This document shows positions 9,907 to 60,877 of a stretch of DNA of 64,000 bases, in pieces. The DNA is taken from contig NC_092048.1 of NCBI RefSeq assembly GCF_003086295.3, positions 105,416,276 through 105,480,275 of the forward strand. Reading direction: 5' to 3'. Every line of letters begins with the position of its first letter. Position 1 is the first letter of the stretch. Origin of the DNA: Arachis hypogaea. Its lineage: Eukaryota > Streptophyta > Magnoliopsida > Fabales > Fabaceae. The notes under the pieces are model-generated. The model did not search any database and was not told where the DNA came from. It was given only the letters and a program-made list of their open reading frames with translations. The position numbers were made by a program, and so were the translations under genes.

Positions 9907-9911
9907 CATCT
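9907..9911 (+). repeat. Target-site duplication of E3, left copy
   Basis: CATCT, repeated exactly at 33818-33822 after the E3 3' LTR. Removing E3 joins the two halves of the family B LTR as seen intact at 57000-57012. Confidence 0.93.
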
Positions 9912-15170: not shown

Positions 15171-15217
15171 TTGGGTTGCCTCCCAACAAGCGCTTCTTTA
15201 ATGTCAATAGCTTGACA
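15171..15217 (-). other. E4 twin hairpin after gag-pro
   Basis: In element sense, hairpin 1 is TGTCA-AGCTAT-TGACA (15217 to 15202). Hairpin 2 is TTGGG-AGGCAA-CCCAA (15186 to 15171), with TTAAAGAAGCGCTTG between them. It lies just after the gag-pro stop, as in the other elements. The role is unknown; see the findings for the covariation. Confidence 0.75.
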
Positions 15218-24397: not shown

Positions 24398-24405
24398 TAT
24401 AAATA
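24398..24405 (+). promoter_or_regulatory. TATA box of E3 5' LTR
   Basis: TATAAATA in GTGTATAAATAGCTTAAG, repeated at 32918-32925 in the 3' LTR. It is the likely promoter of E3 genomic RNA, although E4 now separates the first 99 bp of the LTR. Confidence 0.65.
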
Positions 24406-28360: not shown

Positions 28361-28408
28361 TGTCAAGCTAGTGACAATAAAAGAGCGCTCCATGGGAGGC
28401 AACCCATG
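28361..28408 (+). other. E3 twin hairpin after gag-pro
   Basis: Hairpin 1 is TGTCA-AGCTAG-TGACA (28361-28376). Hairpin 2 is CATGGG-AGGCAA-CCCATG (28391-28408). It begins 14 nt after the stop codon. The spacer AATAAAAGAGCGCTC resembles that of E4 and E5. Confidence 0.8.
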
Positions 28409-33817: not shown

Positions 33818-33822
33818 CATCT

Positions 33823-34014
33823 GATTAATAAAATAGCACACTTTTCTACAACTCATTGGGAGACGACCTGGGACTTAAACTCCCAGTAATTTTTAAATTA
33901 AACTCTCTGTGACATATTTCTAAATTGATAGGCAGATTTTCGGTGAGTTAAGAACTATACTTGCAACGTAACTATTTTAATAATTTTTAATTCACCAACT
34001 TCTGTGTCTCATCA
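33823..34014 (+). repeat. E2 5' LTR, part 2 (family B)
   Basis: Continues the family B LTR from 9911 and matches 57013-57210. TTGGGAGACGACC is followed by the hairpin CTGGGA-CTTAAAC-TCCCAG (33868-33886). It ends GTGTCTCATCA. Confidence 0.92.
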
Positions 34015-34129: not shown

Positions 34130-37100
34130 ATGATGCGTTCACTTCCCGATCCGTGCTTGCTAATATTCGATCCTGAAATTGAAAGGACTATTTCACGAAT
34201 AAGGTGAGAACATCGTCGGTTAGTCCGCTCTGAGGGCGGATCTGAAAGTGAACTTGAGGAAGAAACCAGCCCCCGTTCTACTGATTCGGTTGTTTTACGT
34301 GCAGAAGACATGGCAGCTAGGAGAGTTACCATCCAGGAGGAAGAAGCCCCTGATTTTACAATGCAACCGTTTCAAGCACATCATCCAGCGGTAGCTACAG
34401 ATTTTGAAATAAATACCGCACTGCTAAATTTGATGCCCAAGTTTCATGGCCTACCTGCTCAAGAGCCTATCAAGCACTTGAGAGATTTCCAGGCAGCCTG
34501 TTCTACTGTCAGGCGTGATGGTACTGATGAAACTTCAATTTTGCTGAAAGCTTTCCCGTTTTCTCTCGAGGGAAAAGTAAGAGAGTGGTACTACACTCAA
34601 CCTCTAGCAAATGTATCCAACCGGGATACACTCAGAAAGGAGTTTTTGGAGAAATTCTTTCCATCTGAAGTTACTGATAAACTGAGGAAAGATATTTCCA
34701 CAATTGTTCAGGATGACAATGAGACTCTCTTTGAATACTGGGAGCGCTTCAATAATCTTCTGGAAGCATGCCCCCACCACATGATTGACAAGATAGTGTT
34801 ACTTAGCTATATCACACAGGGCATGAGGCCCCAAGATAAGACCACATTAGAAAGTGCTAGCAATGGGTCTATGAAGAAGTACAAGACCACTGATGAGGCT
34901 TGGCAATTGATCAGTGATTTAGCTGAATCTACTAGGAACCACAGGCAAAAGCAAGGCCGTTCAAAAGCCGTTGCAGAAGTATCCTCTAACAGAGAGACTG
35001 CTGCTCTAGCTCAGAGTATATGTGAGATGACCAACTTGCTGAAGCAGATGCAATTGAATCAACAACAAGCTCAGCAAGCTCAACCTCCTCCACCACAGCA
35101 AAACTAACTAGTCCCACAAAGAATTTGCGGAATCTGTGCTGATTATAGCCATTACACTGATGAATGCCCGCACCTCTAACAAGAAGACAACATGGTGGCA
35201 TCCACTCATAACTTCTATGACCGCCCCAACCAAGGGTACAATCAAAGTGGAAATAATAACCATGGATGGCAGGACAATTCTAATCAGAATTGGAGGGACA
35301 ACAATAACAGAGGAGGCTGAGATAATCAGGGAAATCAGAGGCGGAATAATAACAACAACAGGCAGCAGAATCAACCTTATAGAGCACCTCACCTGAGGCA
35401 AAACCAAGGACCACAGAACAATCAACAGCAGACCTCTCAATTCACTCACTCTTCTTCATCTCCTAATGAAGAGCTACTACAATCTTTTGAGCGAAGACAA
35501 TAGACCATGGAAAATAACATCATGAATAGTATTAATGCCAGTCTGAATGGTCTCACCTCTACTTTGCAAGCTTTTATGTCACAGATTGGATCAACACAAA
35601 ATTCCAGTAACCAACCTTCAAGTTCCACTGGAATCCCCTCTCAACCATTACCCAATCCAAAGGGAGGCATTAATGCCATCACCCTAAGGTCTGGAACCAC
35701 ACTGCAGGAGAGGAATCAGGAAGAACCAAGCCCACCAGAACACACCTCAGCTGAAGAGGTAGTAGAAATAGAAGATGTTGAAGAGGAAGAGGACATACAA
35801 GACATAGCTGAAGAAGAAATAGCTCAACCACAGGAGGAAGCACCAAAAGGCACAAACACCACAGAAAACACTACTCTTATTCCATTTCCACAACTTGCAA
35901 GGAAGCCCAGGAAGCAGCTGGAACCCGACCCCAAAATGGTAGAAATATTCAAAAAGGTTGAGGTAACTGTTCCTCTTTTTGATGTTATTCAGCAGGTACC
36001 TAAATATGCAAAGTTTCTAAAAGACTTATGTATCCATAAAGACAAAATTAATGAATTAGAAACTATTCCTTTAGGTAGTTCTATATCTGCTTTAATGGGA
36101 GGATTACCCGAAAAATGTAGTGATCCAGGTCCTTGTATAGTTAGCTGTACTATTGGTGGTGTAGTAATTTATGATTGCATGTGTGATTTAGGAGCATGTG
36201 TTAGTATAATGCCTTTGTCTATATATGATATTTTGAGGCTCCCTCCCTTAAAAAGGTCAGCAGCTCATTTTGTGTTAGCAGATAAAAGCATTATTACAGT
36301 GGCTAGAGTTGCTGAAGATGTTTTGGTGAACATTAAAGGGCTTACATTTCCCACTGATTTTTATATCTTGGAGATGCCCCATAATAATTCAGATAAGCCA
36401 TCATCAATCCTACTTGGAAGACCATTCCTGAAGACATTAAAATTCAAATTGGATGCTTTTTCAGGAACATACTCCTTTGAAATAGATGGTCGCATAGTAA
36501 TCTTCAATCTGAATGGAGTCATTGACAACCCCCCAGAAGATCGTTCTATCTTCCAGTGTGATGTCATAGATGAAAGTGTAGCTAAAGTTCACAAGGAAGA
36601 GTTTGAAGAGAGACACACTGGACAAGGTCCAAGTGTGGGGACCCTTTTAACTGACAATGAGGGCACTTCGCCATTTTCACAAGCTCCAGATAATCCAAAG
36701 CCTGCCTATGATCAAAAGTTAGAATTGAAACCCCTCTCTCCACATCTCAAATATGCTTATCTTGAAGATGAGCAGAGGTTTCCAGTTATCATTGCAAGGG
36801 AACTTACTTCTCAACAAGAAGAGCAGCTACTTGATGTACTGAGGAAGCATAAGAAGGCAATTGGGTGGAGCTTGGCAGACATAGTAGGTATCAACCCTCA
36901 AGTATGTGAACACAGAATATTTTTAGAAGAGGGAGCAAGACCTGTTCGTCAACCCCAAAGAAGATTGAATCCCACCATCTTGAAAGTTGTCAAAAAGGAA
37001 GTGACCAGACTATTGGAAGTCGGTATCATATATCCCATTTCAGACAGTGAATGGGTAAGCCCAGTACAAGTGGTGCCCAAGAATTCTGGAGTCACTACAG

Positions 37101-39631
37101 TGAAGAATGAGCATGGAGAGCTCATAGCAACTAGAGTTCAGAATGCTTGGAGAGTCTGCATTGATTACAGGCGTCTCAACCAAGCTACCCGTAAGGATCA
37201 CTACCCACTTCCATTCATTGATCAAATGCTGGATCGCCTGTCAGGTAAATCACATTATTGCTTTTTAGATGGTTACACAGGTTATTTCCAGATTCATATA
37301 GTTCCTGAGGATCAGAAAAAGACTACATTTACATGTCCTTTTGGGACTTATGCTTACAAGAGAATTCCCTTTGGCTTGTGCAATGCACCAGCTACTTTCC
37401 AAAGGTGCATGATGAGTCTTTTCTCTGATCTTATTGAGGACTGTATGGAAGTTTCTATGGACGATTTTAGCGTTTATGGTGATTCTTTTAGCCTTTGCTT
37501 AGATGGATTATCTAGAGTATTAGATAGATGTGTTAATACAAACCTTGTATTAAATTTCAAAAAATGTCACTTTATGGTAAAACAAGGAATTGTATTGGGA
37601 CATGTGGTATCTAATAATGGCATTTCTGTAGACCTAGCAAAGGTGAATGTTATTTCTAGTCTACCTTACCCCTCTTCTGTGAGGGAAGTCCGTTCGTTCC
37701 TTGGCCATGCAGGTTTTTACAGGAGATTTATTAAGGACTTTAGTAAGGTCGCACTTCCCTTATCCAGATTACTGCAGAAGGATATTGAGTTCGAGTTCAG
37801 TGAGGATTACAAACAAGCGTTTGATAAGCTGAAGACTGCTCTAACTCAAGCTCCAATTGTGAGAGGACCAGATTGGAGCCAGCCGTTTGAAATCATGTGC
37901 GATGCTTCCAACCATGTAGTAGGAGCAGCGCTGGCTCAGCATGAAGGTAAGGATCCTTTCGTTATTGCTTATGCGTCTAAGACTTTAGACACTGCCCAGT
38001 CCAATTATACTACTACTGAGAAAGAGCTTCTTGCTATTGTTTTTGCTCTGGATAAATTTCGAGCTTATTTACTTGGTACTAGAGTAGTAGTGTATTCGGA
38101 CCATGCAGCTTTAAAGTATCTATTAGCTAAAAAGGAGTCCAAACCAAGACTTATACGTTGGATACTGTTGTTACAAGAATTTAATTTAGAAATAAAGGAT
38201 AGGAGTGGTAATCAAAATTTAGTGGCAGACCACTTGAGTCGCCTTGAGCATATTAAGGATGATTCTACTCCTATAGATGATAATTTTCCTTTTGATAACC
38301 TGCAAGCAGTATCTGAGGTAGTCCCTTGGTATGCACCTGTTGCTAATTATTTAGTTAGCCGCAAATTTCCTCCAAATTTTTCTAAGCATCAAAGAGACAA
38401 GCTGAAAAGCGAGTCTAAATATTACATATGGGATGACCCATATTTATGGAGATGTGGCGCTGATCAAGTAATTAGACGTTGTGTGCCTCAATCAGAATTC
38501 CAGTCCATTTTAGAGGCCTGTCACTCATCTGAGAGTGGAGGACATTTTGGTCCTCAAAGAACAGCCAAAAAGATCTTAGACTGTGGATTCTGGTGGCCTA
38601 CTCTTTTTAGAGACGCTGCTGAGTTTTGTAAATCTTGTCTCCCATGCCAGAAATTTGGTAATATATCCAGGAGGGATGAGATGCCTCAACAAATTATGCT
38701 TTTCTGTGAAATTTTTTATGTTTGGGGCATTGACTTCATGGGTCCATTTCCAAACTCTAATGGATATTTTTATATATTGTTAGCTATGGATTATGTTTCC
38801 AAATGGGTGGAAGCAATTCCTACCCGCACTGATGATGCTAACACTGTTGTTTTCTTTGTGAGAAACCGTATTATATGTCGCTTCGGATCACCACGAGCAA
38901 TCGTGAGCGATCAAGGCACCCATTTTTGTAACAGGAGACTAACAGGATTAATGAAGAAGCATGGGATAATTCATAAAGTTGCAACAGCTTACCATCCCCA
39001 AACTAATGGGCAAGCTGAGGTGTCAAACAGAGAAATTAAGCGTATCTTGCAAAAGATAGTAAAGCCTCATAGAAAAGACTGGAGCACCAGGCTATAAGAT
39101 GCACTCTGGGCATACAGAACAGCATACAAGACACCCATTGGAATGAGTCCCTTCCGCTTGGTTTATGGAAAAGCTTGTTATCTCCCAGTTGAAGTAGAAC
39201 ACAGAGCTTTTTGGGCAGTTAAGGAGTGCAACATGGGAATCGAGAAAGCCGGAGCTGAAAGGAAGTTACAACTGCAGGAACTGGAGAACCTTCGCCTAGA
39301 AGCTTATGAAAACTCCAAAATATACAAGGAAAAGATGAAGGCTGTACATGATCAAAACATCAAGAAGAAAGAGTTCCAACCTGGGAATTTAGTCCTCCTT
39401 TACAAATCTCGACTAAGGTTCATGCCAGGCAAGTTGAGATCAAGATGGGAAGGTCCATACAGAGTAGAGAAGGCCGAACCGTACGGAGTTTATCACCTAA
39501 GCCATCCTTCAAGCTCTGAATTTATTAAGGTTAATGGCCAACGCCTGAAGATATACCATGGCGAGAAGATGCAGAGAAACAAGGAGCTTGAGATCTTCCT
39601 CTTGGAAGATCCCCACATAGCAGAAGATTGA
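34130..39631 (+). pseudogene. gag-pol: E2 gag-pol polyprotein, six premature stops
   Basis: A single 1833-codon frame from ATG 34130 without frameshift, interrupted at TGA 34205, TAA 35105, TAA 35177, TGA 35318, TAG 35501 and TAA 39095. The longest open part is 35507-39097 (1196 residues). Gag core: FHGLPAQEPIKHLRDFQ, FPFSLEGKVREWYY, ETLFEYWERFNNLL. A zinc knuckle CGICADYSHYTDEC (C-x2-C-x4-H-x4-C) lies at 35130-35172. Protease CDLGACVSIMPLS has Asp near residue 686. RT has SMDD (residue 1109) in place of YMDD. RNase H has [31 protein letters not shown] and SDHAALKYL. Integrase has a zinc region (CHSSESGGHFGPQR ... CLPCQK), Asp in WGIDFMGP, Asp in VSDQGTHF and Glu in NGQAEVSN, then a GPY/F-like RWEGPYRV tail. 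Confidence 0.93.
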
Positions 39632-39641
39632 GCTAGTGGAG

Positions 39642-39692
39642 CGTCCAACTTACGGACGTTAAAGCAAAGTGCTAGGTGGGAGACAACCCACC
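39642..39692 (+). other. E2 twin hairpin after gag-pol
   Basis: Hairpin 1 is CGTCC-AACTTAC-GGACG (39642-39658). Hairpin 2 is GGTGGG-AGACAA-CCCACC (39675-39692). It begins 10 nt after the stop. The primary sequence is far from the other families but the fold is the same. Confidence 0.8.
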
Positions 39693-41110: not shown

Positions 41111-42364
41111 ATGGCCACCAAGAAAGGAAAGAAGAAAGCGACTCCTAAACCCCCAGCAAGAAAAGGCACTAAAAGAGCATTAGTGGCAGAGCCCTCTTCA
41201 ACCACAGTCAATCCCTCAACAAAAAGAGTTAAGAGGATAATAAAGGTTGATGAGAAGGAGAAAGCCTTCCCAGCAAAGGACACTACGCGATTTCCCAATC
41301 GCTACTGTAAACAGATGTTCCCTATCCTGGCAGAAAGAAACTATAACAATGAATACCTTCTTATCCTCCCATCCAATATTGCTACCCTTGTTGAGCCGTA
41401 AATTGAACGAAGACAATGGGGTTTCCTACGGAGACAGTCAAGGCAGGTCAATCTTCCTTGGGTAGTTGAGTTCTACTCTAACTTCTACATGCCAACCTTG
41501 CAGTCTGTTTATGTCCGACAGAAGCAAGTCCCCATCACAGAAGAGGCCATTCAGCAAGCTCTGAGTCTTCCCCCTATTCCAGAAGGAATGGACACCATCC
41601 AAGAAGCCGCACTTAAGCGCCAGAGGTATCAATTTGACTGGGACTCCGTTCTAGGAGTTATCGCATTACCTGGCAGCCGTTGGATCTACGGATACCACCG
41701 TACCCGCCCTAAGGGAATCTTAGCTTCAGCACTTACCTTGGAAGCTCGGGTATGGGCACAGATCATGTCCCATTACGTCTTTCCGAGCACTCATGAGTCC
41801 TCCTTCACTGCGGACATGGCTGTTCTACTTTGGTGCATCCTTACAGACCACCCTCTGAATCTCTCAAGACATATCCGGAATGCTATGGAACACGTACAAA
41901 TTGCGGGCAACTTACCTTTCCCCGCCTTGGTTTCAGATCTTGTCTCAGCAGCCGGAGTCTCCTACAGAGCTGGGGACACCAAAGCCGTGCTTCCACGTGA
42001 TGATCAGTATGTCCCTTACGGGAAATACCTCAGACTTCCAGCAGCCACTACAAGTCTTCCTACTGCTCCAGTTGAAGATAATCCTTCTTCAATACCACAA
42101 GCACCTACAACTGATGAATTGCTCCAGCAGATAATCACAAGGTTGGATCGGCAAGAACACAAAGCTAAGTTGAGAGAGCGCCGTAACGAGCGCCAATTCA
42201 AACACCTCAAGGAGCTACTCAAGGGACATTTCAGGGACTCGGATACCCCGGACTCCACTTCTTTTACCAGCACAGGGAGCCATAATGGTCCCGACTGTGG
42301 AGATACTGCTACCAGCCTACCCTTGTTCCTGACAGACGGCATCGAGGACGGTGCAAAGCCTTAA
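41111..42364 (+). pseudogene. E2 ORF3 with one premature stop
   Basis: 418 codons from ATG 41111 (MATKKGKKKATPKPPARKGT), with TAA at 41399 and no frameshift; the part after it is open from 41489. It has a basic, Pro/Lys-rich N-terminus, then a globular region with FYSNFYMPTLQSVYVRQKQV, ALKRQRYQFDWDSV and LTLEARVWAQIMSHYVFPST. A short charged segment near the end (RQEHKAKLRERRNERQFKHL) is probably coiled coil. It occupies the same place as ORF3 of E1 and E3 and shares the general plan, though similarity by eye is weak. No membrane span was found. GTGTGGGGAGG right after the stop echoes the family B PPT. Confidence 0.75.
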
Positions 42365-42507: not shown

Positions 42508-42817
42508 TGATGCCAAGGCATCTTAGGCTAGTTTCACTAGCATTTTTCTGTTAGTTTTAGTTGTTTTATGCATTTTCTTGAGCTTAAAGTAACCAAAAAT
42601 GGTTAAATGAAGAACAAAGCAATGAACCATCCAAACAGTATGATTTTAATGCAAATTCCATGAGTTTTAGTTATATTACTTGAATGCTATGAATGGAAGA
42701 TTTCTCATGAAATTTTGCAAGACTTTGATGCAATTGTTTGGATGATTTCAGGGAAGAAGAGGCTAAGCAAGGAAGCAACAAAATCAATAAAGGAAGCTTG
42801 AATATCACATGTGGAGT

Positions 42818-43545
42818 TTAAGTTCCAGTTTAAGCCTAAACTGGAGCTTAAACGCCAGAATCAGGAAGGCTAAGAAATGCTGGAATTGAAGTTTAACCTC
42901 CAGTTTAACCTTAAACTGGAGGTTAAACGCCAGAATGATAATGCCACTCAGGAAGGAGTTCCACGTTTAACCTCCAGTTTAACCTTAAACTGGAGGTTAA
43001 ACGCCAGAATGGGAAAAGCACCAGGGAGCCATTTCCACGTTTAAGCTCCAGTTTGACCTCAAACTGGAGCTTAAACGTGTTCGACCAAGTTTTCTCCTCC
43101 AGGGTTGCTCTCTCCATTTCCACGTTTAAGCTCCAGTTTGACCTCAAACTGGAGCTTAAACGTGTTCGACACCTCCAGGGCTACCCTTCTAAGCTTCCAC
43201 GTTTAACCTCCAGTTTAACCTTAAACTGGAGGTTAAACGTGTTCGACCTCCAGGATGCCTCCTTCCATTTCCACGTTTAACCTCCAGTTTAACCTTAAAC
43301 TGGAGGTTAAACGTGTTCGACCTCCAAGGCTGCCCTTCCTATATCCACGTTTAAGCTTCAGTTTAACCTTAAACTGAAGCTTAAACGTGTTCGACTACAT
43401 GACTCTCCAGGGCTGCTTTCTTCCATTTCCACGTTTAAGCTTCAGTTTAACCTTAAACTGAAGCTTAAACGTGCTTCTACAAAAGGCCTCACTGGAAGTG
43501 TCTGGCGTTTAAGCTGCAGTTTAAGCTTAAACTGCAACTTAAACG
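42818..43545 (+). repeat. Ten-unit palindrome array in E5 5' LTR
   Basis: Units spaced about 75-80 bp. The unit at 43347-43388 has perfect 20-bp arms (ACGTTTAAGCTTCAGTTTAA and its complement) around CC. Others have GCTCCAG/CTGGAGC or CCTCCAG/CTGGAGG, and TTTGACC-TCAAA or TTTAACC-TTAAA, always changed on both arms. Confidence 0.93.
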
Positions 43546-43870
43546 CCACTCTTGGAAAAGGTTTCTGGACCAAAAATATTGTGGTTTAAGTTAGTATTTG
43601 AGCACAAACATTAACTTAAACTTATTCTGGTATGAAACCCAATTGAATATCATGGTTTATGGGATTGGGCCTGAAGGATTGATGAGTTTGAAATCTCAAT
43701 TTATTGAGTCATGTGTCATTATTTGATTATCACTAAGTTGGCTCAATGAATGTTACAGAATTTGGATCAACAGCCTCATCAAGATTATGGATCATAAACC
43801 CAAGGCAAAAGGAAAGCAGGGAGAGGCCTCAAAGCCCATGAAACACAACAGAAGCTCAATATAGAAAGTG

Positions 43871-43878
43871 TATAAATA
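43871..43878 (+). promoter_or_regulatory. TATA box of E5 5' LTR
   Basis: TATAAATA in GTGTATAAATAGGATAG, just after the palindrome array; the 3' LTR has it at 53434-53441. It is the most plausible U3 promoter in the window because E5 is the least damaged element. Confidence 0.7.
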
Positions 43879-44837
43879 GGATAGAATTTAAGTTAGAAAG
43901 GACTTTTTACCTTCACTTTTAGCTAGTTTTCATATCTTTGTAATTGAATTCAGAGCTATGACTCACTAAACCCCCTTTCATTGGGTTAGGGAGCTCTATT
44001 GTAATTCAATGAATCAATAATAGTTTATCTTCTTCTTCAATCTTTTCTCTTGAATTTTGTTAGAAAGCTTCTCGATCTAATTCCATTGGGTAGTTGTCTT
44101 GGGAAAGAAACTACCTATAATTGGAATCCTTCGGAACCTTGGGAAAGGAATGGAGGATTCATGCTAGAGAAGCTTTCTCACAGTGAATTGGATTGGGGTT
44201 TGGATGGATATTGTGACATGTAATCCTACCAAATTGTGGTTCATAAAACTGTGTGGTATAATCAGTGATCGAGCATCATCTCTTCTTATGAACATTTAAA
44301 CCAAGGGATTGGGAATTTGTTCATTTTTAGAGAGAATTGGTGAGCCAAGGGATTGGGATCCAATCATATAAGATTGCCAAGCAAAATTCAATGAACGCAT
44401 TGCTTGAGGAAGAGATAAACATGTTTTGATTCGGAGATCTCAATATCTCCTATAACCCAATGAATCCCCCAATTCTGATTACATCTTCTCTTTACATTCT
44501 GCAACTCAATTCATGCAATCACCCCCATTCCCTTTTAATTTCAGCAATTTAGTTTCTGCTCTTTAATTCATGCAATTTAAGATTCCGCCATTTCAATTTC
44601 TTGTTATTTACTTTTCCCGCCAATTTTACATTCCGCAATTCTCATCTCAATCTTGATTCCGCTCAACTAGAACACACTTCTAATCCGAATTGCTCACTCA
44701 ACCAATCCTTGTGGGATTCGACCTCACTCTATTGTGAGTTTTTACTTGACGATAACCGGTGCACTTGCCGGAAGGAATTTTGCCGATCGTGCAATTTCCT
44801 AAATCGTAGCATAACTAGTTTATGCGCATCAAGTTTA

Positions 44838-44855
44838 TGGCGCCGTTGCCGGGGA
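44838..44855 (+). other. E5 primer-binding site (tRNA-Asp)
   Basis: TGGCGCCGTTGCCGGGGA, 6 bp after the LTR, fully complementary to the tRNA-Asp 3' end. Confidence 0.94.
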
Positions 44856-45118
44856 TTGGTTTTCGATTGACAATTCTCCAATTGGAAGTTAACTAGATTG
44901 AGCATTTTTTTTTTTGTGTTTTGATTAATTCAGTACAAGTTACTTGTTGAATTTTAATTTCTGCACTCTGTTACATGCTTTCTTTCTTTATGCCTTTAAA
45001 TTCAAGCAACTAACTCACTGACTCACTAACTGTTTGAATTAATTCCTCAATTGCTCTAACCATACTCTTCCATTAACCAAGAGTATTTCACTTGTTGTTG
45101 CCTGTGCTGTGTTCTTGT

Positions 45119-48100
45119 ATGACAGGTAGGAGAGGAGAGACATCAACTCCTCCATATACCGAACCAGAGAGGACCCTTCATAGACTTAGAAGGGAAGCAA
45201 GAGGGAAGAGAGTACTGGGAGAAGAAGAATCTGAAGGAGAATCTGAGGACAATTTTGAGGAAGCTCTAGATCTCAACATGGATAGAGAAGTTCACAACCA
45301 TGAGAGAGCTGATGGAAACAATGCCATTCCTGAGAGGAGGGTTCTTAGTTCATACATAAACCCAACCTCTGGGAATTGTGGTAGCAGCATTCAGAAACCA
45401 CCCATTCAGGCCAACAATTTTGAACTCAAACCATAGCTAATATCACTTGTGGAGAATCATTGTTCATTTGGTGGGAGTGCTAATGAAGATCCCAACCAAC
45501 ATCTCACAAAATTCCTGAGAATTTGTGACACTGTGAAGTCCAATGGAGTCCAGGAAGATGCATATAAACTGCTTTTGTTCCCATTTTCACTTAGGGACAA
45601 AGCAGCTAAGTGGCTGGAATCATTCCCAAGGGGAAGTCTAACAACATGGGATGAGGTGGAAAGCAAGTTTCTGGCACGTTTCTACCCCCCACAAAAGGTC
45701 AATAGGCTTCGATCTGAGGTTCAGACTTTTAGACAACAAGATGGTGAAACTCTCTACGAGGCATGGGAGAGATTCAAGGACTTGACAAGGAAATGCCCAC
45801 CAGACATGTTCCATGATTGGGTGCAATTGCATATTTTCTATGATGGACTCTCTTATGAATCAAGGAAGGCTGTAGACCATTCATCAGGAGGTTCATTGAA
45901 CAGGAAAAAGACTGTGGAAGAGGCCATTGAAGTGATTGAGACAGTGGCTGAGAATGAGTACTACTATGCATCAGAAAGGCACAACACTAAGGGAGTCATG
46001 GAGCTGAACCATGTTGATACAATTCTAGCCCAAAACAAGGTGTTTGCCAAGCAACTAGCGGAACTTACCAGGCAATTAGAAACAAAGCAAGTGGCTGCAA
46101 TACACACACAAGATCAAGAGGAAGTAAGCATTGAAGGAGGTGATTGGGAAGAGGCCAACTATGTGGGAAACCAACAAAGGCAATCATATGATCCACATTC
46201 CAACACTTACAACCCAGGATGGAAAAATCACCCAAACTTTGGGTGGGGGAACCAACAAACCCAACCACAAAACCACAAACCTTACAACCACAACCAACAT
46301 AACAATTCCACATACCAAAACTCCAACCAAAGATCATACCAAGCCACACAAAACACTTACTCCCAACCATCATATCATGGCCAAAATAATCAACCTACCC
46401 AACCTGATCCAAACCAACAATTTCAAGATCAATTAAACCGGATAGAAGGAATGCTTACAACCATGAGTCAAGACATAACCGAATTGAAAGCTTTTAAGGA
46501 AGAAGTAAAGTCTAACCTGCAAAACCAAGGAGCTGCCATCCAGAAGCTAGAAAATCAAATTTTGTATTTGTCTAAGCAAACCCCTGGGACGAGCGTTTCT
46601 CATGCTGCCAAGGCTATTGCAAGGGAAGAATGTAAGGCCATAACCCTCAGAAGTGGAAAAAATCTAAAGGAGATCTCAAAGGAAACCACAGAGGATGAAG
46701 CAAGGGAACATGTGAGAGACAAGGAACAAGGACAATCTTTTACACCGTCCGCAACAAAAGAAAAAGAGGTCCTGAAGCCTTATACACCTAAAGCACCATA
46801 TCCTCAACGTTTGATGAAAAGTGAAAAGGATGGTCAATTCTCCAGGTTCTTGGAGATTTTCAAGAAGCTCCAAATCAACATTCCGTTTGCTGAGGCAATA
46901 GAGCAAATGCCACTCTATGCAAAATTCTTAAAAGAATTAATGACCAAGAAGAGAAGCTGGAGAAATGAGGAAACTGTGTTGTTAACTGAAGAATGCAGTG
47001 CCATCATTCAGCACAAATTGCCTCAGAAATTGAAGGACCCAGGCAGTTTCCAAATCCTCTGCATCATAGGAGAAGTCATGGTGGAGAAGGCCTTGTGTGA
47101 CTTAGGGGCCAGCATCAATTTGATGTCTCTAACAATGATGAGAAGAATGAAGATTGAGGAAGCCAAACCAACAAGAATGGCCCTCCAATTGGCAGATCGA
47201 ACTTTTAAATTCCCTCATGGGATAGTTGAGGATTTGTTGGTGAAAGTGGGAGATTTTATATTTCCTGCTGATTTTGTGGTGTTAGATATGGAGGAAGAAG
47301 CCAAAGCTTCAATAATTCTGGGAAGACCCTTCCTGGCTACTGCTGGAGCCATCATAGATGTACAAAAGGGTGAACTCACTCTTAGACTACATGATGAGAA
47401 ATTGGTGTTTAACGTATTCAAGGCAATGAGCTATCCATCAGAATCACTAAGGGAATGCATGAGGATTGATGTAGTGGACATTGCAGTACAAGAAACTTTT
47501 GAGGAAACAATAAAGGAAGTGGCAGAGGAGGAGTTCACCAAGGATATTGAAGTTAGTGACATCAAGGCTGCTGAAACAACCATGCCAAGCATGCCAGAGA
47601 GAGTGAAAGAAGAGAAGGAAGCACCAAAACCTGAGCTCAAAGCATTGCCCCCTAATCTCAAGTATGCATACTTGGGTAGTGATGAGAGTCACCCTGTTAT
47701 CATTAGCTCTGCCCTGAGCCAAGAACAGGAAGAAGAATTGATCAAGGTGCTACAAACTCATCAAGATGCCATTGGATGGACCCTAGCCGATTTGAAGGGG
47801 ATAAGTTCATCCATATGCATGCATAAAATCTTGTTAGAAGAGGATGCTAGACCCTCCATTCAAGCTCAGAGAAGATTGAATCCCGTCATGAAAGAAGTGG
47901 TACAAAAGGAAGTCATGAAGTTATGGCAGGCAGGGGTAATCTACCCCATTTCTGATAGCCCATGGGTTAGTCCCATCCATGTAGTTCCCAAGAAAGGTGG
48001 CATAACTGTGGTGCCAAATGAGAAGAACGAACTCATACCCACAAGAACCGTCACTGGGTGGAGGATGTGCATAGACTACAGGAAGCTCAATGAAGCCACC

Positions 48101-50518
48101 AGAAAGGATCATTTCCCACTCCCATTCATGGATCAGATGCTTGAAAGGCTTGCCGGACATGCTTACTATTGTTTTTTAGATGGATATTCAGGCTACAACC
48201 AAATAGTAGTTGATCCTAAAGATCAAGAGAAAACATCATTTGTTTGTCCATATGGAGTTTTTGCTTATAGACGCATGCCCTTTGGATTGTGCAATGCACC
48301 TGCCACTTTCCAAAGATGCATGCTGTCCATCTTTTCGGACATGATTGAAAAATTTATTGAGGTCTTCATGGACGATTTTTCTGTGTTTGGAGATTCTTTT
48401 CCTAGCTGCCTACACCACCTTGCCTTGGTGCTTAAGAGATGCCAAGAGACTAACCTAGTATTAAACTGGGAAAAGTGTCATTTCATGGTCACAGAAGGAA
48501 TAGTCCTTGGCCACAAAATCTCTAATAGAGGCATTGAGGTGGACAGAGCTAAGGTGGAACTCATTGAAAAATTACCTCCACCAAGTAATGTCAAGGCAGT
48601 TAGGAGTTTTTTGGGACACGCTGGTTTTTACAGAAGGTTTATTAGAGACTTTTCTAAAATAGCCAAACCTTTGAGTAACTTGCTTGTCTCTGATACACCC
48701 TTTGTATTTGATAAAAATTGCATGCTAGCCTATGAACTTTTGAAGCAAAAACTTTCCTCTGCACCTATCATTGCCCCACCTGATTGGAACTTACCTTTTG
48801 AACTGATGTGTGATGCATCAGACCTTGCTATTGGGGCAGTGTTAGGACAAAGGAAAGACAATTTGGTACATGTGATTTATTATGCCAGTAAAGTCTTGAA
48901 TGATAACCAAAGGAATTACACAACCACTGAAAAAGAACTCTTGGCAATAGTCTTTGCATTTGACAAATTTAGATCCTATCTCATTGGATCTAAAGTCATA
49001 GTCTTCACTGATCATTCAGCTTTAAAATACTTACTTGCTAAACAAGAATCCAAACCAAGACTTATTAGATGGGTTCTTTTGTTGCAGGAATTTGACATTG
49101 AAATCAAAGACAAGAAGGGTGTAGAGAACAAGGTGGCAGACCATTTATCAAGAATACCATGTGAAGAAGGAAGCGCACAAAGCACACATATAAATGAGTG
49201 CTTTCCTGATGAACAACTCATGGTAATTCACAAAGCACCCTGGTTTGCAGACATAGCAAACTTCAAGGCCACTGGGAGTTTACCGTTGGAATTTAACAAA
49301 CATCAAAGGAAGAAATTGGTAAATGATGCCAAATACTTCATCTGGGACGAACCATACTTGTTCAAAAAATGTTCCGATGGCATACTCAGAAGATGCATAT
49401 CCGAGGAAGAAGGAAGGGAAGTCTTATGGGACTGCCATGGCTCCACTTATGGAGGACATTTTGCAGGAGAAAGAACAGCAGCTAAGGTGTTGCAGTGTGG
49501 TTTTTATTGGCCCTCTATCTTCAAAGATGCAAAAGAATTAGTGAAGCACTGCCATGAATGCCAGAAAGCGGGGAACCTGCCAAGAAGAAATGAAATGCCA
49601 CAACAATTCATTCTGGAACTTGAATTGTTTGATGTATGGGGGATAGATTTCATGGGACCCTTTCCCTCCTCATACTCAAATAATTACATTCTTGTGGCAG
49701 TAGACTATGTCTCCAAATGGGTTGAAGCAATAGCAACTCCAACCAATGATAATAAGGTAGTCATGAACTTCCTCAGAAAACACATTTTTTGCCGTTTTGG
49801 GGTTCCAAGAGCAATCATCAGTGATGGAGGAAGCCACTTCTGCAACAAACCATTAGAGGCATTGCTTCTAAAATATGGAGTCAAACACAAGGTAGCCACA
49901 CCATACCATCCATAGACAAGTGGGCAAGCCGAAATATCTAACAGAGAACTCAAAAGGATCCTGGAAAAGACTGTGGGAACTTCAAGGAAGGACTGGTCGA
50001 TTAAGCTAGATGATGCTCTTTGGGCATATAGGACAGCTTTCAAAACACCAATTGGAATGTCTCCTTACCAACTAGTATATGGAAAAGCTTGCCATTTGCC
50101 ACTGGAGTTGGAGCACAAGGCATACTGGGCCTTGAAACTTTTGAACTTGGACAACAAAGCTGCTGGAGAAAGAAGGATGTTGCAAATTCAAGAGTTGGAA
50201 GAATTCAGAGTGGAAGCTTATGAGAATGCCAAAATTTACAAAGAAAGAGCAAAGAAGAAGCATGACAGCAACATAGCCCCAAGGAAATTTGAAGAAGGAC
50301 AAAAAGTATTGCTCTACAATTCTAGGCTGAAGCTATTTCCAGGGAAGCTAAAATCAAGGTGGTCTGGACCATTCCTTGTCACCAAGGTCTCCAAATATGG
50401 ACAAGTAGAAATCATGGAAGAAAAGTCACAACGAACCTTCATTGTGAACGGTCAAAGACTCAAACATTACTTGGGAGATGTGGATGAGAAGGACAAAGTT
50501 AAATATCACCTCAACTGA
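45119..50518 (+). pseudogene. gag-pol: E5 gag-pol polyprotein, two amber stops
   Basis: A 1799-codon frame from ATG 45119 with no frameshift. The only breaks are TAG at 45434 (residue 106) and TAG at 49913 (residue 1599); the open part between them starts at 45449. Gag: [52 protein letters not shown], then an N/Q-rich tail and [13 protein letters not shown]. Protease [12 protein letters not shown] has Asp at 661, followed by [16 protein letters not shown] has FMDD at 1083-1086, and RNase H has [15 protein letters not shown] with Asp about 1232. The integrase has an HHCC region ([10 protein letters not shown] ... CHECQK), Asp in WGIDFMGP about 1509, Asp in ISDGGSHF about 1569 and Glu in GQAEISN about 1604, then [11 protein letters not shown]. 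The first amber precedes most of gag, so this copy makes little product without readthrough. No CCHC knuckle was seen. Confidence 0.94.
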
Positions 50519-50528
50519 GGAAGCTGAC

Positions 50529-50576
50529 CGTCAAGCTAATGACGTTAAAGAAGCGCTTGTTGGGAGGCAACCCAAC
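50529..50576 (+). other. E5 twin hairpin after gag-pol
   Basis: Hairpin 1 is CGTCA-AGCTAA-TGACG (50529-50544). Hairpin 2 is GTTGGG-AGGCAA-CCCAAC (50559-50576). The spacer is TTAAAGAAGCGCTT. It starts 10 nt after the stop. E5 has no ORF3, so the module is kept without it. Confidence 0.82.
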
Positions 50577-52125
50577 CTGAGGTAATACCCTTTTGCTGTT
50601 TCTTTTATTTGTTTCAATAAAAAGGGTGAAGTAATTTCTGTGCATTGCAAAGAATTAAGTTTTGTGTTTCACACCAAACAATGAATTCGTGGATCAATAA
50701 TTCAAAGGGGAATGTGTGACTCTAAGTTTGGTGTTCCACCATAAAGATCAACTGAACACAACAACCTTTGAATTATATGAGAAGAACAACCATTCTAAGC
50801 AGTCACAGAAATGCTTAAAACCCTTAGCAGCAACTTCATTCCAAAGAGAACTCAAGGATTCAAAGCACAGAGAAGTAAGTGGGAGACTAAGTTTGGTGTT
50901 CACACACCAACTTAAGACTCAGATACTTACCCACACATAGTTGAGCTAACCACTCAAGTGCTTGAGAAGCAAGCAACTTCATCACTCTTTGCAGGAAAGG
51001 AAACAAGGATTTTAAAGCATGAAGCAACATTTAGGAGAAGAAGGGAAATCAAATTGTTTCCTGGCAACAAAGAGAAAACAAGGAATTTCACAAGGTGGTA
51101 TTGTTCCTTGATAATTCTTTAAAAAGGGCAAACAAAAGCATGCTTGTTCTGGTTTAAACTGTAAATGTTGAATCTTTCTGGAATGTGAAGTTTTTAGTAT
51201 ATTTGTCTGTTTATTGCTTTGAATAAAGTGAATGCCTAGATGTTTGGATATAACTCCACCTTCTTAAACAAATGCTTGCCATGCTTGTTCTGTTTCCGAA
51301 AATAAAAGAAAAGTTTGAACAAAAGTAACTTGGCTCAATTAGTGACAAATCAAGTAGAATTAAGTGGTGGTATGCATGCTTGATTGTTTAAGTCAGATCA
51401 CTGGAAATAGAGTGTAGAATTATCATTTTTTATGTAGAAATTGAAAACTGTCTATGGATCTTGATGAATAAATATCTTTGGTCATGAAAAAGAAAGAAAA
51501 AGAAGAAGAAAAAGCCACTGAAAAAGGGCAACCAAAAAGCAAAAAAAAAAAAATTGAGAAAATAAGCTAGGTACCAATGGTTTGAACTTCTGAGACAAAT
51601 GCCTGTGGTGTTTATGTATTAAGGATATGCTTGGATGAAGAGGTTCTGAGGAGTGTTTCAACACTTGGTAACTTGGGTTAACTAACCCGGGATTATCAAC
51701 CAAAAGTCCATTATCAAGAGCAACCTAAATACAAAACATTTAGTCACACAAAGAGGTGCTGGGCACCAATGTCTCAAGAAGAAATGTGAACTAAAATGCC
51801 TGAAGTGGATATGTGTAGTGCACTGATAAGAAAAAGAATATGCCAAAGGCTTGTGCAACACATGACACTAAGCAAACAAGGAGCAAAGAAGCTCTAAGAA
51901 AAAGAAAAGAAAAACAAAGAAGAAAAGTGCCAAGGACATAAGAATAACAAGAGGCCATAGCAGTGTTTGATGGATGCAAGGAAAAAGTGATAATCTTACC
52001 TGATAAGAATGAAAAAGTGATGCTGCAACTTTCTGCATAAAACCCTTCTGATGAACTTCAAATGCTTGCTAATATAGCCAATGTAATTGCTTTCTGTTTC
52101 ATACTTTCTTCTCAAATAACTCAGG
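50577..52125 (+). other. E5 3' noncoding region
   Basis: About 1.5 kb without a supported ORF; ORF3 is absent. It carries CTAAGTTTGGTGTTC at about 50725 and 50889, an A-rich run at 51485-51560, and the block at 51580-51790 shared with E3, including TTGGGTTAACTAACCC. Confidence 0.7.
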
Positions 52126-52163
52126 ACTTGCTTAGGGACAAGCAAGTATTAAGTTTGGTGTTG
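52126..52163 (+). promoter_or_regulatory. E5 polypurine-tract region with hairpin
   Basis: ACTTGCTT (52126-52133), AGGGAC, AAGCAAGT (52140-52147), then ATTAAGTTTGGTGTTG against the 3' LTR. Eight perfect base pairs. Confidence 0.68.
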
Positions 52164-54394
52164 TGATGCCAAGGCATCTTAGGCTAGTTTCACTAGCATT
52201 TTTCTGTTAGTTTTAGTTGTTTTATGCATTTTCTTGAGCTTAAAGTAACCAAAAATGGTTAAATGAAGAACAAAGCAATGAACCATCCAAACAGTATGAT
52301 TTTAATGCAAATTCCATGAGTTTTAGTTATATTACTTGAATGCTATGAATGGAAGATTTCTCATGAAATTTTGCAAGACTTTGATGCAATTGTTTGGATG
52401 ATTTCAGGGAAGAAGAGGCTAAGCAAGGAAGCAACAAAATCAATAAAGGAAGCTTGAATATCACATGTGGAATTTAAGTTCCAGTTTAAGCCTAAACTGG
52501 AGCTTAAACGCCAGAATCAGGAAGGCTAAGAAATGCTGGAATTGAAGTTTAACCTCCAGTTTAACCTTAAACTGGAGGTTAAACGCCAGAATGGGAAAAG
52601 CACCAGGGAGCCATTTCCACGTTTAAGCTCCAGTTTGACCTCAAACTGGAGCTTAAACGTGTTCGACCAAGTTTTCTCCTCCAGGGTTGCTCTCTCCATT
52701 TCCACGTTTAAGCTCCAGTTTGACCTCAAACTGGAGCTTAAACGTGTTCGACACCTCCAGGGCTACCCTTCTAAGCTTCCACGTTTAACCTCCAGTTTAA
52801 CCTTAAACTGGAGGTTAAACGTGTTCGACCTCCAGGATGCCTCCTTCCATTTCCACGTTTAACCTCCAGTTTAACCTTAAACTGGAGGTTAAACGTGTTC
52901 GACCTCCAAGGCTGCCCTTCCTATATCCACGTTTAAGCTTCAGTTTAACCTTAAACTGAAGCTTAAACGTGTTCGACTACATGACTCTCCAGGGCTGCTT
53001 TCTTCCATTTCCACGTTTAAGCTTCAGTTTAACCTTAAACTGAAGCTTAAACGTGCTTCTACAAAAGGCCTCACTGGAAGTGTCTGGCGTTTAAGCTGCA
53101 GTTAAACGCCACTCTTGGAAAAGGTTTTTGGACCAAAAATATTGTGGTTTAAGTTAGTATTTGAGCACAAACATTAACTTAAACTTATTCTGGTATGAAA
53201 CCCAATTGAATATCATGGTTTATGGGATTGGGCCTGAAGGATTGATGAGTTTGAAATCTCAATTTATTGAGTCATGTGTCATTATTTGATTATCACTAAG
53301 TTGGCTCAATGAATGTTACAGAATTTGGATCAACAGCCTCATCAAGATTATGGATCATAAACCCAAGGCAAAAGGAAAGCAGGGAGAGGCCTCAAAGCCC
53401 AAGAAACACAACAGAAGCTCAATATAGAAAGTGTATAAATAGGATAGAATTTAAGTTAGAAAGGACTTTTTACCTTCACTTTTAGCTAGTTTTCATATCT
53501 TTGTAATTGAATTCAGAGCTATGACTCACTAAACCCCCTTTCATTGGGTTAGGGAGCTCTATTGTAATTCAATGAATCAATAATAGTTTATCTTCTTCTT
53601 CAATCTTTTCTCTTGAATTTTGTTAGAAAGCTTCTCGATCTAATTCCATTGGGTAGTTGTCTTGGGAAAGAAACTACCCATAATTGGAATCCTTCGGAAC
53701 CTTGGGAAAGGAATGGAGGATTCATGCTAGAGAAGCTTTCTCACAGTGAATTGGATTGGGGTTTGGATGGATATTGTGACATGTAATCCTACCAAATTGT
53801 GGTTCATGAAACTGTGTGGTATAATCAGTGATCGAGCATCATCTCTTCTTATGAACATTTAAACCAAGGGATTGGGAATTTGTTCATTTTTAGAGAGAAT
53901 TGGTGAGCCAAGGGATTGGGATCCAATCATATAAGATTGCCAAGCAAAATTCAATGAACGCATTGCTTGAGGAAGAGATAAACATGTTTTGATTTGGAGA
54001 TCTCAATATCTCCTATAACCCAATGAATCCCCCAATTCTGATTACATCTTCTCTTTACATTCTGCAACTCAATTCATGCAATCACCCCCATTCCCTTTTA
54101 ATTTCAGCAATTTAGTTTCTGCTCTTTAATTCATGCAATTTAAGATTCCGCCATTTCAATTTCTTGTTATTTACTTTTCCCGCCAATTTTACATTCCGCA
54201 ATTCTCATCTCAATCTTGATTCCGCTCAACTAGAACACACTTCTAATCCGAATTGCTCACTCAACCAATCCTTGTGGGATTCGACCTCACTCTATTGTGA
54301 GTTTTTACTTGACGATAACCGGTGCACTTGCCGGAAGGAATTTTGCCGATCGTGCAATTTCCTAAATCGTAGCATAACTAGTTTATGCGCATCA
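52164..54394 (+). repeat. E5 3' LTR (family D)
   Basis: 2231 bp. Nine palindrome units (about 52475-53110). It lacks one 78-bp unit found at about 42928-43005 and has lost 19 bp inside the last palindrome (near 53100). TATAAATA at 53434-53441. Ends GCGCATCA, then the 48-bp repeat. Confidence 0.95.
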
Positions 54395-58504: not shown

Positions 58505-58551
58505 TTGGGTTGCCTCCCAACAAGCGCTTCTTTAATGTCAGTAGCTTGATA
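58505..58551 (-). other. E1 twin hairpin after gag-pro
   Basis: In element sense, hairpin 1 is TATCA-AGCTAC-TGACA (58551 to 58536; one A-C mismatch). Hairpin 2 is TTGGG-AGGCAA-CCCAA (58520 to 58505). The spacer equals that of E4. Confidence 0.72.
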
Positions 58552-58559
58552 GTGGGCTC

Positions 58560-60877
58560 TCATGGAGCCTCACAGATACTCAGAGAGCATGATGATGGCC
58601 TCTCAACACCAAACTCAGAGCATGATGATGGCTTCTCAACACCAAACTTAGAGTTTGAATGTGGGGATTTTGTTTGACTCTGTATTGAGAGAACCTTTTC
58701 ATGCTTCCTCTCCATCGTTATAGAGGGAGATCCTTGAACCTTAAACACAAGGGAGTCCTCATTCACTTGAAGGACTAATTCTCCTCTGTCTACATCAATC
58801 ACAGCTTTTGCTGTGGCTAGGAAGGGTCTACCAAGGATGATGGATTCATCTATACACTTCCCAGTATCAGGGATTATGAAATCAGCAGGGATGTAGTTGT
58901 CTTCAACCTTTACCAAGACATCCTCTACAAGTCCATAAGCTTGTTTCCTTGAATTGTCTGCCATCTCTAGTGAGATTTTTGCAGCTTGTACCTCAATGAT
59001 CCCTAGCTTTTCCATTATAGAGAGAGGCATGAGGTTTATACTTGACCCTAGATCACACAGAGCCTTCTCAAAGGTCATGGTGCCTATGGTACAAGGTATT
59101 GAGAACTTTCCAGGATCTTGTCTCTTTTGAGGTAATCTCTGCCTAGTCAAGTCATCCAGTTCTTTGGTGAGCAAGGGGGGTTCATCCTCCCAAGTCTCAT
59201 TACCAAATAACTTGGCATTTAGTTTCATGATTGCTCCAAGGTACTTAGCAACTTGCTCTTCAGTAACATCTTCATCCTCTTCAGAGGAAGAATACTCATC
59301 ATAGCTCATGAATGGCAGAAATAAATTCAATGGAATCTCTATGGTCTCAGTGTGAGCCTCAGACTCCCATGGTTCCTCATGAGGGAACTCCTTGGAGGCC
59401 AATGGACGTCCAATGAGGTCTTCCTCAGTGGAGATCACTGCCTCTTCCTCCTCTCCAAGTTCGGCCGTGTGGGCCATGTTGATGGCCTTGCACTCTCCTT
59501 TTGGATTCTCTTCTGTATTGCTTGGAAGAGTACTAGGAGGGAGTTCAGTAACTTTCTTACTCAGCTGACCTACTTGTGGCTCCAAATTTCTAATGGAGGA
59601 CCTTGTTTCAGTCATGAAACTTTGAGTGGTTTTAATTAGATCAGAGACTCAGTTGCTAAGTCAGAGTGGCTCTGCTTAGAATTCTCTGTCTGTTGCTGAG
59701 AAGATGATGGAAAAGGCTTGCTATTGCTAAACCTATTTCTTCTACCATTATTATTATTGAAGCCTTGTTGAGGCCTCTGTTGGTCCTTCCATGAGAGATT
59801 TGGATGATTTCTCCATGAAGGATTGTAAGTGTTTCCATAGGAATCTCCCATGTAATTCACCTCTTCCATTGCTGGGTTCTCAAGATCATAAGCTTCTTCT
59901 TCAAATGAAGCTTCTTTGGTACTGCCTGTTGCTGCTTGCATTCCAGACAGACTCTGAAAAATCATATTGACTTGTTGAGTCAATATTTTATTCTGAGCCA
60001 GTATGGCATTCAGAGTATCAATCTCAAGAACTCCTTTCTTCTGATTTGTCCCATTATTCACAGGATTTCTTTCAGAGGTGTACATGAATTGGTTATTTGC
60101 AACCATTTCAATGAGTTCCTGAGCTTCTGCAGGCGTCTTCTTCAGATGAAGAGATCCTCCAGCAGAGCTGTCTAATGACATTTTGGACAGTTCAGACAGA
60201 TCATCATAGAAGATACCTATGATGCTCCATTCTGAAAGCATGTCAGAAGGACACCTTCTGATCAATTGCTTGTATCTTTCCCATGCTTCATAGAGGGATT
60301 CACCTTCCTTCTGTCTAAAGGTTTGGACTTCCACTCTAAGCTTGCTCAATTTTTGAGGTGGAAAGAACTTTGCCAAGAAGGCATTAACTAGCTTTTCCCA
60401 AGAGTTCAGGCTTTCTTTAGGTTGTGAATCTAACCATGTTCTAGCTCTGTCTCTTACAGCAAAGGGAAAAAGCATAAGCTTGTAGACCTCGGGATCAACC
60501 CCATTAGTCTTGACAGTGTCACAGATTTGCAAGAATTCAGCTAAGAACTGATGAGGATCTTCCAATGGAAGTCCATGAAACTTGCAATTCTGTTGCATTA
60601 GAGAAACTAATTGAGGCTTATGCTCAAAATTGTTTGCTCCAATGTCAGGGATAGAGATGCTTCTCCCATAGAATTCAGAAGTAGGTGCAGTAAAGTCACC
60701 AAGAACCTTCCTTGCATTGTTGGTGTTTTCGGCTGCCATGGCTTCTTCTTGTTTGAAAAGCTCTGTTAGGTCCTCTACAGAGAGTTGTGCTTTAGCTTCT
60801 CTCAGCTTTCTCTTCAAGGTCCTTTCAGGTTCAGGATCAGCCTCAACCAGAATGTCTTTGTCCTTACTTATGCTCAT
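58560..60877 (-). pseudogene. E1 gag-protease, one frameshift
   Basis: From ATG 60877 (MSISKDKDILVEADPEPERT), 413 codons to a stop at 59636. A 1-bp change near 59650 separates the remaining 351-codon frame (59615 to 58560). Gag core: [65 protein letters not shown]. Protease: DPGKFSIPCTIGT, catalytic [28 protein letters not shown]. The C-terminus has repeats with SKFGVEKPSS and SEFGVERPSS. The frame ends just before the twin hairpin; RT, RNase H and integrase are absent. Spacing and neighbours match E4, so this is the family A architecture and not a local deletion. Confidence 0.9.

Follow-up and report, generated by a model that had tools for sequence, protein, structure and literature searches.

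A hairpin block kept by matched base changes behind gag, pro or pol stops of LTR retrotransposons in Arachis hypogaea

Ty3/gypsy elements account for a large share of many plant genomes, and to our knowledge the cis-acting RNA elements that they carry are hardly known. Among retroviruses, the constitutive transport element of Mason-Pfizer monkey virus is a hairpin-type export element 3' of the retroviral genes; it follows env and forms a larger fold than the block reported here. The Rous sarcoma virus stability element (RSE) is described as lying directly 3' of the gag stop in an mRNA with a long 3' UTR, and as binding PTBP1, whose presence near a stop goes with evasion of nonsense-mediated decay (PMC5580461, PMC4764554). 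The block would likewise be a cis-acting RNA right behind the last stop (78/99 loci), and where the RSE is described as having pyrimidine tracts bound by PTBP1, the block is followed by a U- or pyrimidine-rich tract in 10/10 clusters of copies, a candidate site for protein binding. The RSE measures 400 nt, with a minimum of 155, as given in these sources, whereas the block has ~46 nt and consists of two short hairpins with a U-tract; it also differs in standing in plant elements, and behind pol or gag-pro too. Protection from UPF1-dependent decay, a mark of the RSE, would be a candidate property of the block. The block is not classed as an RSE, as its size differs and the functional likeness would be one of analogy.

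Conserved symmetric motifs outside genes have also been described in plant LTR retrotransposons of the Sirevirus type, which are Ty1/copia, whereas the hosts of the block look Ty3/gypsy (PMC2829016). As described there, the palindromic repeats of Sireviruses are found either 5' of the TATA box within the 3' LTR or on the 5' side of ENV, an inverted repeat sits at the PPT, and the motifs are discussed as transcriptional or PPT signals. Diaspora of soybean, a relative of Athila and Calypso, would resemble the elements studied here in its described tRNA-Asp primer site and single gag-pol frame (PMC1142308). Its short post-pol stretch translates into a predicted transmembrane segment, which suggests that the stretch is T-rich; the words stem and hairpin are absent from the main text of that paper (PMC1142308).

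Searched against Rfam 15, the whole window gave no match to the block, the sole match above the gathering cut-off being snoR71, elsewhere, and a permissive search of positions 50300-50800 returned two matches, which at 16 and 10.5 bits fell well short of the gathering score. For the letters of the block and for its peptide, the literature searched, which lay mostly outside subscription papers, yielded only papers on other subjects, judged by title. The original prediction, that no named element resembles the block, held in Rfam 15 and in this literature. Scans of viral and bacterial contigs yielded seven viral matches unlike the block by eye, zero matches in a further scan and one bacterial match; on viral contigs there were four pattern matches and no relative of RT.

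Architecture of the block and its host elements

The window, by which we mean the whole 64-kb stretch of DNA analysed, is a nest of LTR retrotransposons. The ~46-nt block is common to 5/5 elements (E1 to E5), always in sense orientation, and is made up of hairpin 1 (HP1), a linker and hairpin 2 (HP2); it begins 8-18 nt 3' of a stop codon that closes a gag, pro or pol frame (Table 1). HP1 starts 30 nt 5' of HP2, or 33 nt in E2, and the linker of 14-16 nt contains the self-complementary AGCGCT in 4/5 copies and AGTGCT in E2. Frames of 89 and 155 codons end 8 and 18 nt 5' of HP1 in E4, and an AATAAA begins 40 nt 3' of HP2 in E5. All five copies were found where the original prediction had placed them, and the HP2 loops, AGGCAA with AGACAA in E2, were seen as it described them. 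Its HP2 stems are paired, but amount to only three variants in the window, as E5, E4 and E1 share one type, with an outer G.U pair in E4 and E1. Its HP1 stems hold except in E1, where one pair is an A.C mismatch, and the HP1 loop of E2 is AACTTAC.

Table 1. Coordinates of block features, neighbouring stops and snoR71 matches in the window
Feature	Position	Strand	Basis or remark
E5 pol stop TGA	50516..50518	+	10 nt 5' of HP1
E5 HP1 CGTCA/TGACG, loop AGCTAA	50529..50544	+	alignment, RNAalifold
E5 linker TTAAAGAAGCGCTT with palindrome AAGCGCTT	50545..50558	+	
E5 HP2 GTTGGG/CCCAAC, loop AGGCAA	50559..50576	+	alignment, RNAalifold, covariance model
E5 post-HP2 stretch	50577..50626	+	first 25 nt pyrimidine-rich (0.64)
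E3 pro-like frame stop TAA	28345..28347	+	13 nt 5' of HP1
E3 HP1 TGTCA/TGACA, loop AGCTAG	28361..28376	+	alignment
E3 HP2 CATGGG/CCCATG, loop AGGCAA	28391..28408	+	alignment, covariance model
E2 pol-end frame stop TGA	39629..39631	+	10 nt 5' of HP1
E2 HP1 CGTCC/GGACG, loop AACTTAC	39642..39658	+	alignment
E2 HP2 GGTGGG/CCCACC, loop AGACAA	39675..39692	+	alignment, covariance model
E4 HP1 TGTCA/TGACA, loop AGCTAT	15202..15217	-	alignment
E4 HP2 GTTGGG/CCCAAT (outer pair G.U), loop AGGCAA	15170..15187	-	alignment, covariance model
E1 pro-like frame stop TGA	58560..58562	-	8 nt 5' of HP1; overlaps ATG (ATGA)
E1 HP1 TATCA/TGACA, one A.C mismatch, loop AGCTAC	58536..58551	-	alignment, covariance model
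E1 HP2 GTTGGG/CCCAAT (outer pair G.U), loop AGGCAA	58504..58521	-	alignment, covariance model
snoR71 match, E5	45704-45807	-	
snoR71 match, E1	60236-60343	+	
snoR71 match, E4	19332-19435	+	
snoR71 match, E2	34679-34786	-	

Judged by their sequences, the host elements look Ty3/gypsy-type and Athila/Calypso-like. The frames of E5 match gag, a weak protease (below the cut-off), RT, RNaseH and integrase, and E2 has a gag frame followed by RT, RNaseH and integrase, with no protease match. In E1, E3 and E4 the frames match gag and, at best weakly, protease, with an additional PF20167 frame in E3; neither RT nor integrase was found in their frames of at least 200 aa. The sequence TGGCGCCGTTGCC, which we take to be the tRNA-Asp primer site, occurs at 21857(-), 34020, 44838 and 62633(-); a copy at 25305 carries one mismatch, and GGGG follows in every case. 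Priming from tRNA-Asp is described for the Calypso group and Diaspora (PMC1142308). Frames matching PF20167 (Transposase_32, 'putative plant transposon protein') lie 3' of the block at 29409-31037 in E3 and 41402-42364 in E2, where ORF3 had been placed earlier.

The nested-insertion region spans positions 8631-57210 of the window, and the LTR pairs of E2, E3, E4 and E5 are 95.8-99.4% identical. E4 and E3 separate the two parts of the 5' LTR of E2 (8631-9911 and 33817-34014), and E5 (about 42508-54394) interrupts the E2 interior. An in-frame stop at 49913-49915 divides E5 pol into frames at 45437-49915 and 49916-50518, so this pol copy is broken. E4 is interrupted at 15687-18087 by an LTR of the E5 family in the orientation opposite to the E5 copies, and homology between E4 and E1 resumes on both sides of it with a 4-base overlap. 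Two 2.7-kb stretches at 10011-12703 and 21864-24557 are 99.4% identical, each joining an E4-type LTR to a partial E3-type LTR; this may point to a duplication or conversion event and not to a pair of separate insertions. The matches to Rfam snoR71, a plant C/D snoRNA, exceed the gathering cut-off inside gag-bearing frames and run antisense to gag; this family may have been built on retroelement gag or overlap it. A small frame reading MRAHxQA.DIKEALVGRQPN, with a hydrophobic tail, is present in E1 (58563-58471, minus strand) and E4 (15229-15119, minus strand), and its ATG overlaps the TGA of another frame (ATGA) in both.

Matched base changes in the window and across the genome

In a five-row alignment of the window copies, base pairs formed in 54/55 cells and four pairs had both sides changed, while sliding the 3' partners by 1-3 columns as a control gave pairing of only 20-42%. 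RNAalifold, run unguided on a 184-column alignment, returned exactly the 11 HP1/HP2 pairs and no others. Under a substitution null, which is a simple model, the survival of all pairs had p ~0.001 (E3), 0.005 (E2) and 0.015 (E4). A covariance model of the five copies, the check proposed with the original prediction, recovered its own five copies at E 5.5e-22 to 9.8e-17, a match by construction, and gave one further weak match (E 0.86) in the rest of the 64 kb. With as many as 3 mismatches allowed, the 46-nt core occurred three times in the window and 0 times in 100 shuffles; with as many as 2 allowed, the count of the bare 12-mer GGGAGGCAACCC was not unusual (5 in the window, a number reached in 10/100 shuffles). 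Identity within the block was 64-94% in 9/10 copy pairs, against 20-37% over the next 200 alignment columns, and in the remaining pair, E4 and E1, it was 96% against 66%.

Single-sequence folding was weak (z of -0.77 in E5, -2.05 in E3, -3.58 in E2, -0.02 in E4 and -0.40 in E1), and the minimum-energy fold of E5 and E1 is a competing one that joins CAAGC from HP1 to GCUUG from the linker. By eye, loop and linker might also form a pseudoknot of 3-4 bp (AAGC/GCTT).

Genome-wide counts were made in the window's own genome (2.557 Gb, 440 contigs), and all are lower bounds. The HP2 core with a T..A second pair occurred in at least 39139 copies across the whole genome, compared with 0 for a reversed-pattern control. 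Both sides of this second pair were changed in at least 14039 copies, compared with at least 482 in which the 5' side alone was changed and at least 774 in which the 3' side alone was changed, the latter mostly to G among the matches listed, which can still wobble-pair. Independent sides would predict ~10 doubles (482 x 774 / 39139, by hand). The doubles are inherited within families and stand for three or more pair changes between families rather than for 14039 separate events, and pair counts alone do not tell an RNA stem from a DNA palindrome. In 100 places listed for the doubles, 97 were Watson-Crick (81 C-G, 15 A-T, 1 G-C) and 3 were mispaired; a purine-pyrimidine subset of at least 4799 copies held only A-T or G-C among the matches listed. 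For the outer pair of HP1, counted only in families with an AAGCTAN loop, we found T-A in at least 38768 copies, C-G in at least 5883, T.G in at least 1181 and C.A in at least 671, which by hand gives an odds ratio of about 288; single changes of the C-G type can be inflated by its CpG. Matched changes occur in the two outer HP2 pairs and in the outer HP1 pair. A chance origin of the block was rejected on the counts of the 46-nt core against shuffles, on the slid partners and on the genome-wide reversed-pattern control (0 against at least 39139).

The middle G-C pair of HP2 does not covary: there were at least 610 single changes on its 5' side (3' singles fell outside the count) and at least 21 doubles, of which 8/21 were Watson-Crick. 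Since doubles are abundant at the outer pair and rare at the middle one, the former appears to need pairing only and the latter to be held by its sequence. The top of HP2 (GGG-AGGCAA-CCC) therefore looks fixed by sequence, as in a protein-binding hairpin, a claim that among the inner pairs is drawn from the middle G-C pair only.

Flanking sequence sorts 119 copies of the block into 10 clusters of 52, 29, 21, 7, 3, 2, 2, 1, 1 and 1. Five copies come from the window and 114 were fetched, all from one contig (C1) and from the first places listed; the fetched loci were found with patterns that fix the HP2 core, so HP2 pairs 3-6 are invariant by construction. Cluster 6 combines a pair of rather dissimilar loci, and one of them lacks a proper HP1. 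The prevailing second pair of HP2 is T-A in clusters 1, 6, 7 and 8, C-G in 2 and 9, A-T in 3 and 4, and G-C in 5 and 10; with all four Watson-Crick states present among clusters, at least three double changes are needed on any tree. The 119 blocks collapse to 48 distinct ones for comparing pairing with shuffles, a comparison that, like those of splice-like sites and AATAAA below, ignores the relatedness of copies. The outermost HP2 pair was paired in 44/48 distinct blocks (shuffled mean 24.7; 0/5000 as high) and occurred as C-G, G-C, G.U, A-U and U-A, including a change from C-G to T-A inside cluster 3 (L112).

In HP1, pair 1 was paired in 32/48 blocks (4/5000 shuffles as high) and pair 5 in 37/48 (0/5000), while pair 2 showed no pairing above shuffles (40/48 against 40.7). 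The helix is mostly reduced to 3 bp, GTC/GAC, in clusters 2 and 9, one of these families being abundant. Given pair 2 and this short helix, HP1 is the weaker half of the block. The claim that both hairpins covary is borne out for the two outer pairs of HP2 and for the outer pair of HP1, but the HP1 helix as a whole is much less conserved than HP2. The further claim of selection on RNA structure gains support from the doubles and singles at the second HP2 pair (at least 14039 against 482 + 774, on the block's own genome, which in substance answers the proposed check for covariation in a large set) and from the outer HP1 pair. Slid partners and shuffles stood in for the proposed comparison with random inverted repeats near gag-pol stops. 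By these sequence comparisons, the block is a selected RNA signal whose HP2 is kept by matched base changes.

Position behind the stop and downstream sequence

The module's position and sense orientation were seen directly. Among the 99 loci long enough for this count, 20 short ones being left out, a frame of at least 100 codons ended within 60 nt 5' of HP1 in 78, compared with 47/985 downstream control anchors; the other 21/99 had no such frame near HP1 (decayed copies or a different layout). The gap between stop and HP1 was 5-37 nt in these 78 loci and fell at 10-13 or 18 nt in 67/78, mostly 10-13 nt in clusters 2, 3, 4, 5 and 8 and 18 nt in cluster 1. Upstream sequence matched pol or gag-pro in 109/119 copies, with pol in clusters 2, 5, 8 and 9 and gag-pro in 1, 3, 4, 6 and 7, in agreement with the view that the block occurs with or without pol; no such match was present in 8/52 copies of cluster 1, in 1/21 of cluster 3 or in cluster 10, which has one copy. 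By eye, the tail of the pro-like frame of E3 seems to retain the last pol residues. Stop proximity may accordingly be inherited, as deletion of pol in an E3-type element would leave the block behind a new stop.

The first 25 nt 3' of HP2 are pyrimidine-rich in 10/10 clusters: their pyrimidine fraction is 0.58-0.75, compared with 0.36-0.54 for the 100 nt upstream. Pyrimidine and AATAAA counts used one copy for each distinct first 40 nt, with short ones dropped. Sequence resembling a 3' splice site lay within 150 nt after HP2 in 49/52 copies of cluster 1 (shuffled 1.4), typically at ~45 nt, and in 6/29 of cluster 2 (shuffled 0.2), with first matches at 44-49 nt; it was present in only 4/21, 1/3 and 1/2 copies of clusters 3, 5 and 6, and clusters 4, 7, 8, 9 and 10 had none within 150 nt by the rule used. 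AATAAA stood within 60 nt after HP2 in 11/17 distinct copies of cluster 3 (shuffled 1.4), at 25-41 nt, a spacing also seen in single copies of clusters 7 and 8, and in 6/25 copies of cluster 2 (shuffled 2.3), at 26-27 nt. Clusters 1, 4, 5, 6, 9 and 10 had no AATAAA in these first 60 nt, and CAATAA was present in 4/6 copies of cluster 4 (shuffled 0.5). Most copies of the abundant gag-pro family at loci L011-L038 have a near-perfect 3' splice site ~45 nt after HP2, T-rich and then YAG plus GTTGATGATCAT, with an A-rich stretch behind it.

Possible roles of the block

We tentatively propose, by analogy and with a confidence short of even, an RSE-like or closely related stop-coupled role in the stability or processing of gag(-pol) mRNA. 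The module would be read in the order of last gag, pro or pol stop, a gap of usually 8-18 nt, HP1, a short linker mostly with AGCGCT, HP2 and a U- or pyrimidine-rich tract. A terminating ribosome would meet it immediately, a host or element protein on the HP2 tip and U-rich tract could mark the stop as genuine, and the gag(-pol) mRNA, with a 3' part that would be kilobases long, might thereby escape nonsense-mediated decay or, as an alternative outcome, be set apart for its own RNA processing. In genomic sequence, which does not give transcript ends, 3' LTR matches start at 52164 to 52473 in E5, where the stop ends at 50518, and at 32159 in E3, where it ends at 28347. A constant tip above a lower stem that covaries freely is what protein-binding hairpins show, and the place behind the stop, whichever frame ends there, together with the U-tract would fit a stop-proximal mRNA element; the stop position would also suit packaging or splicing control.

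A serious rival, which we nevertheless think unlikely, is a packaging or dimerisation signal, in which Gag would recognise HP2 so that only block-bearing RNA enters particles, genome pairs might kiss through the palindromes AGCT or AAGCGCTT, and non-autonomous elements would have to keep the block. E1, E3 and E4 do keep it in spite of the missing RT and integrase matches in their frames of at least 200 aa, but these elements still have Gag matches, so the needs of packaging and translation are not separated. The absence of covariation in the middle pair of the HP2 tip also agrees with recognition by Gag, as does the self-complementary AGCGCT of 4/5 window linkers with dimerisation, although E2 has AGTGCT instead. 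Retroviral and BARE packaging signals are located in the 5' leader, whereas all five strong model matches in the window stand behind a gag, pro or pol stop, and packaging leaves the narrow stop spacing and the U-tract unexplained. The splice-like sites above shuffles in clusters 1 and 2, AATAAA in 3 and 2 and CAATAA in 4 would instead favour an RNA-processing switch, in which a nearby downstream 3' splice site or internal poly(A) signal comes under the control of the block, separating gag(-pol) mRNA from other transcripts. We regard this as improbable, as no single downstream signal is common to all clusters and those present may have arisen from the U-rich region in particular families.

That pair counts are blind to the difference between RNA stem and DNA palindrome also leaves room for a dyad-symmetric binding site acting at the DNA level, with no RNA structure, and palindromic non-coding motifs are described in Sireviruses (PMC2829016). 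The block, however, follows the orientation of the element genes, has an asymmetric loop (AGGCAA/AGACAA) and occurs once per element in the window, behind a stop codon, which makes such a site very unlikely. Least credible, with next to no weight in our view, is a conserved peptide encoded by the block in the frame QA.D.KEALVGRQPN. E5, E3, E4 and E1 have no stop in this frame across the block, and two successive protein searches in the frame KEALVGRQPN, the second with a profile, recovered short predicted proteins, 5 at first and later 24 that include these 5 (23/24 from ENA), most with the motif. Yet the starts and ends of the frame vary, and its residues change in stem-complementary pairs (V/N, H/M and A/S). 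A coding peptide was rejected, as the frame is closed in E2 and changes between E5 and E3 fall on codon positions 1, 2 and 3 in a non-coding pattern (3, 5 and 2, no third-position bias). By eye, 22/24 of the proteins would, given suitable codons, allow HP2 to pair, with residue pairs V-N in 13, A-S in 6 and I-N, H-M and V-D in 1 each, whereas P0025 (T-M) is incompatible and P0021 is not comparable. The search profile already held the V-N, H-M and A-S forms, so these matches are not independent proof, and the peptide relatives give only a hint of HP2 pairing.

Two further candidates were rejected. A 5'-3' bridge between GGCAAC of HP2 and GTTGCC of the primer site is not maintained, as all five primer sites read GTTGCCGGGG and E2 has GACAAC. 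Stop-codon readthrough would, by eye, meet a second stop within 2 (E5) and 7 (E3) further codons.

Beyond the stop-coupled stability or processing role, the block may possibly, if with rather low confidence, represent an unnamed class of plant-retroelement RNA, a stop-coupled hairpin pair whose fixed tip would bind one host or Gag protein and decide between translation, decay, splicing and packaging, common to pol-bearing and gag-pro families; copies of the HP2 core number at least 53,178 (39139 + 14039) in one genome. The block is short and sharply defined, has matched changes on a genome scale and is common to pol-bearing and gag-pro elements. It would offer a handle on how plant retroelement RNA avoids decay or is processed or packaged and on what non-autonomous families must keep, and a 46-nt marker for finding such elements.
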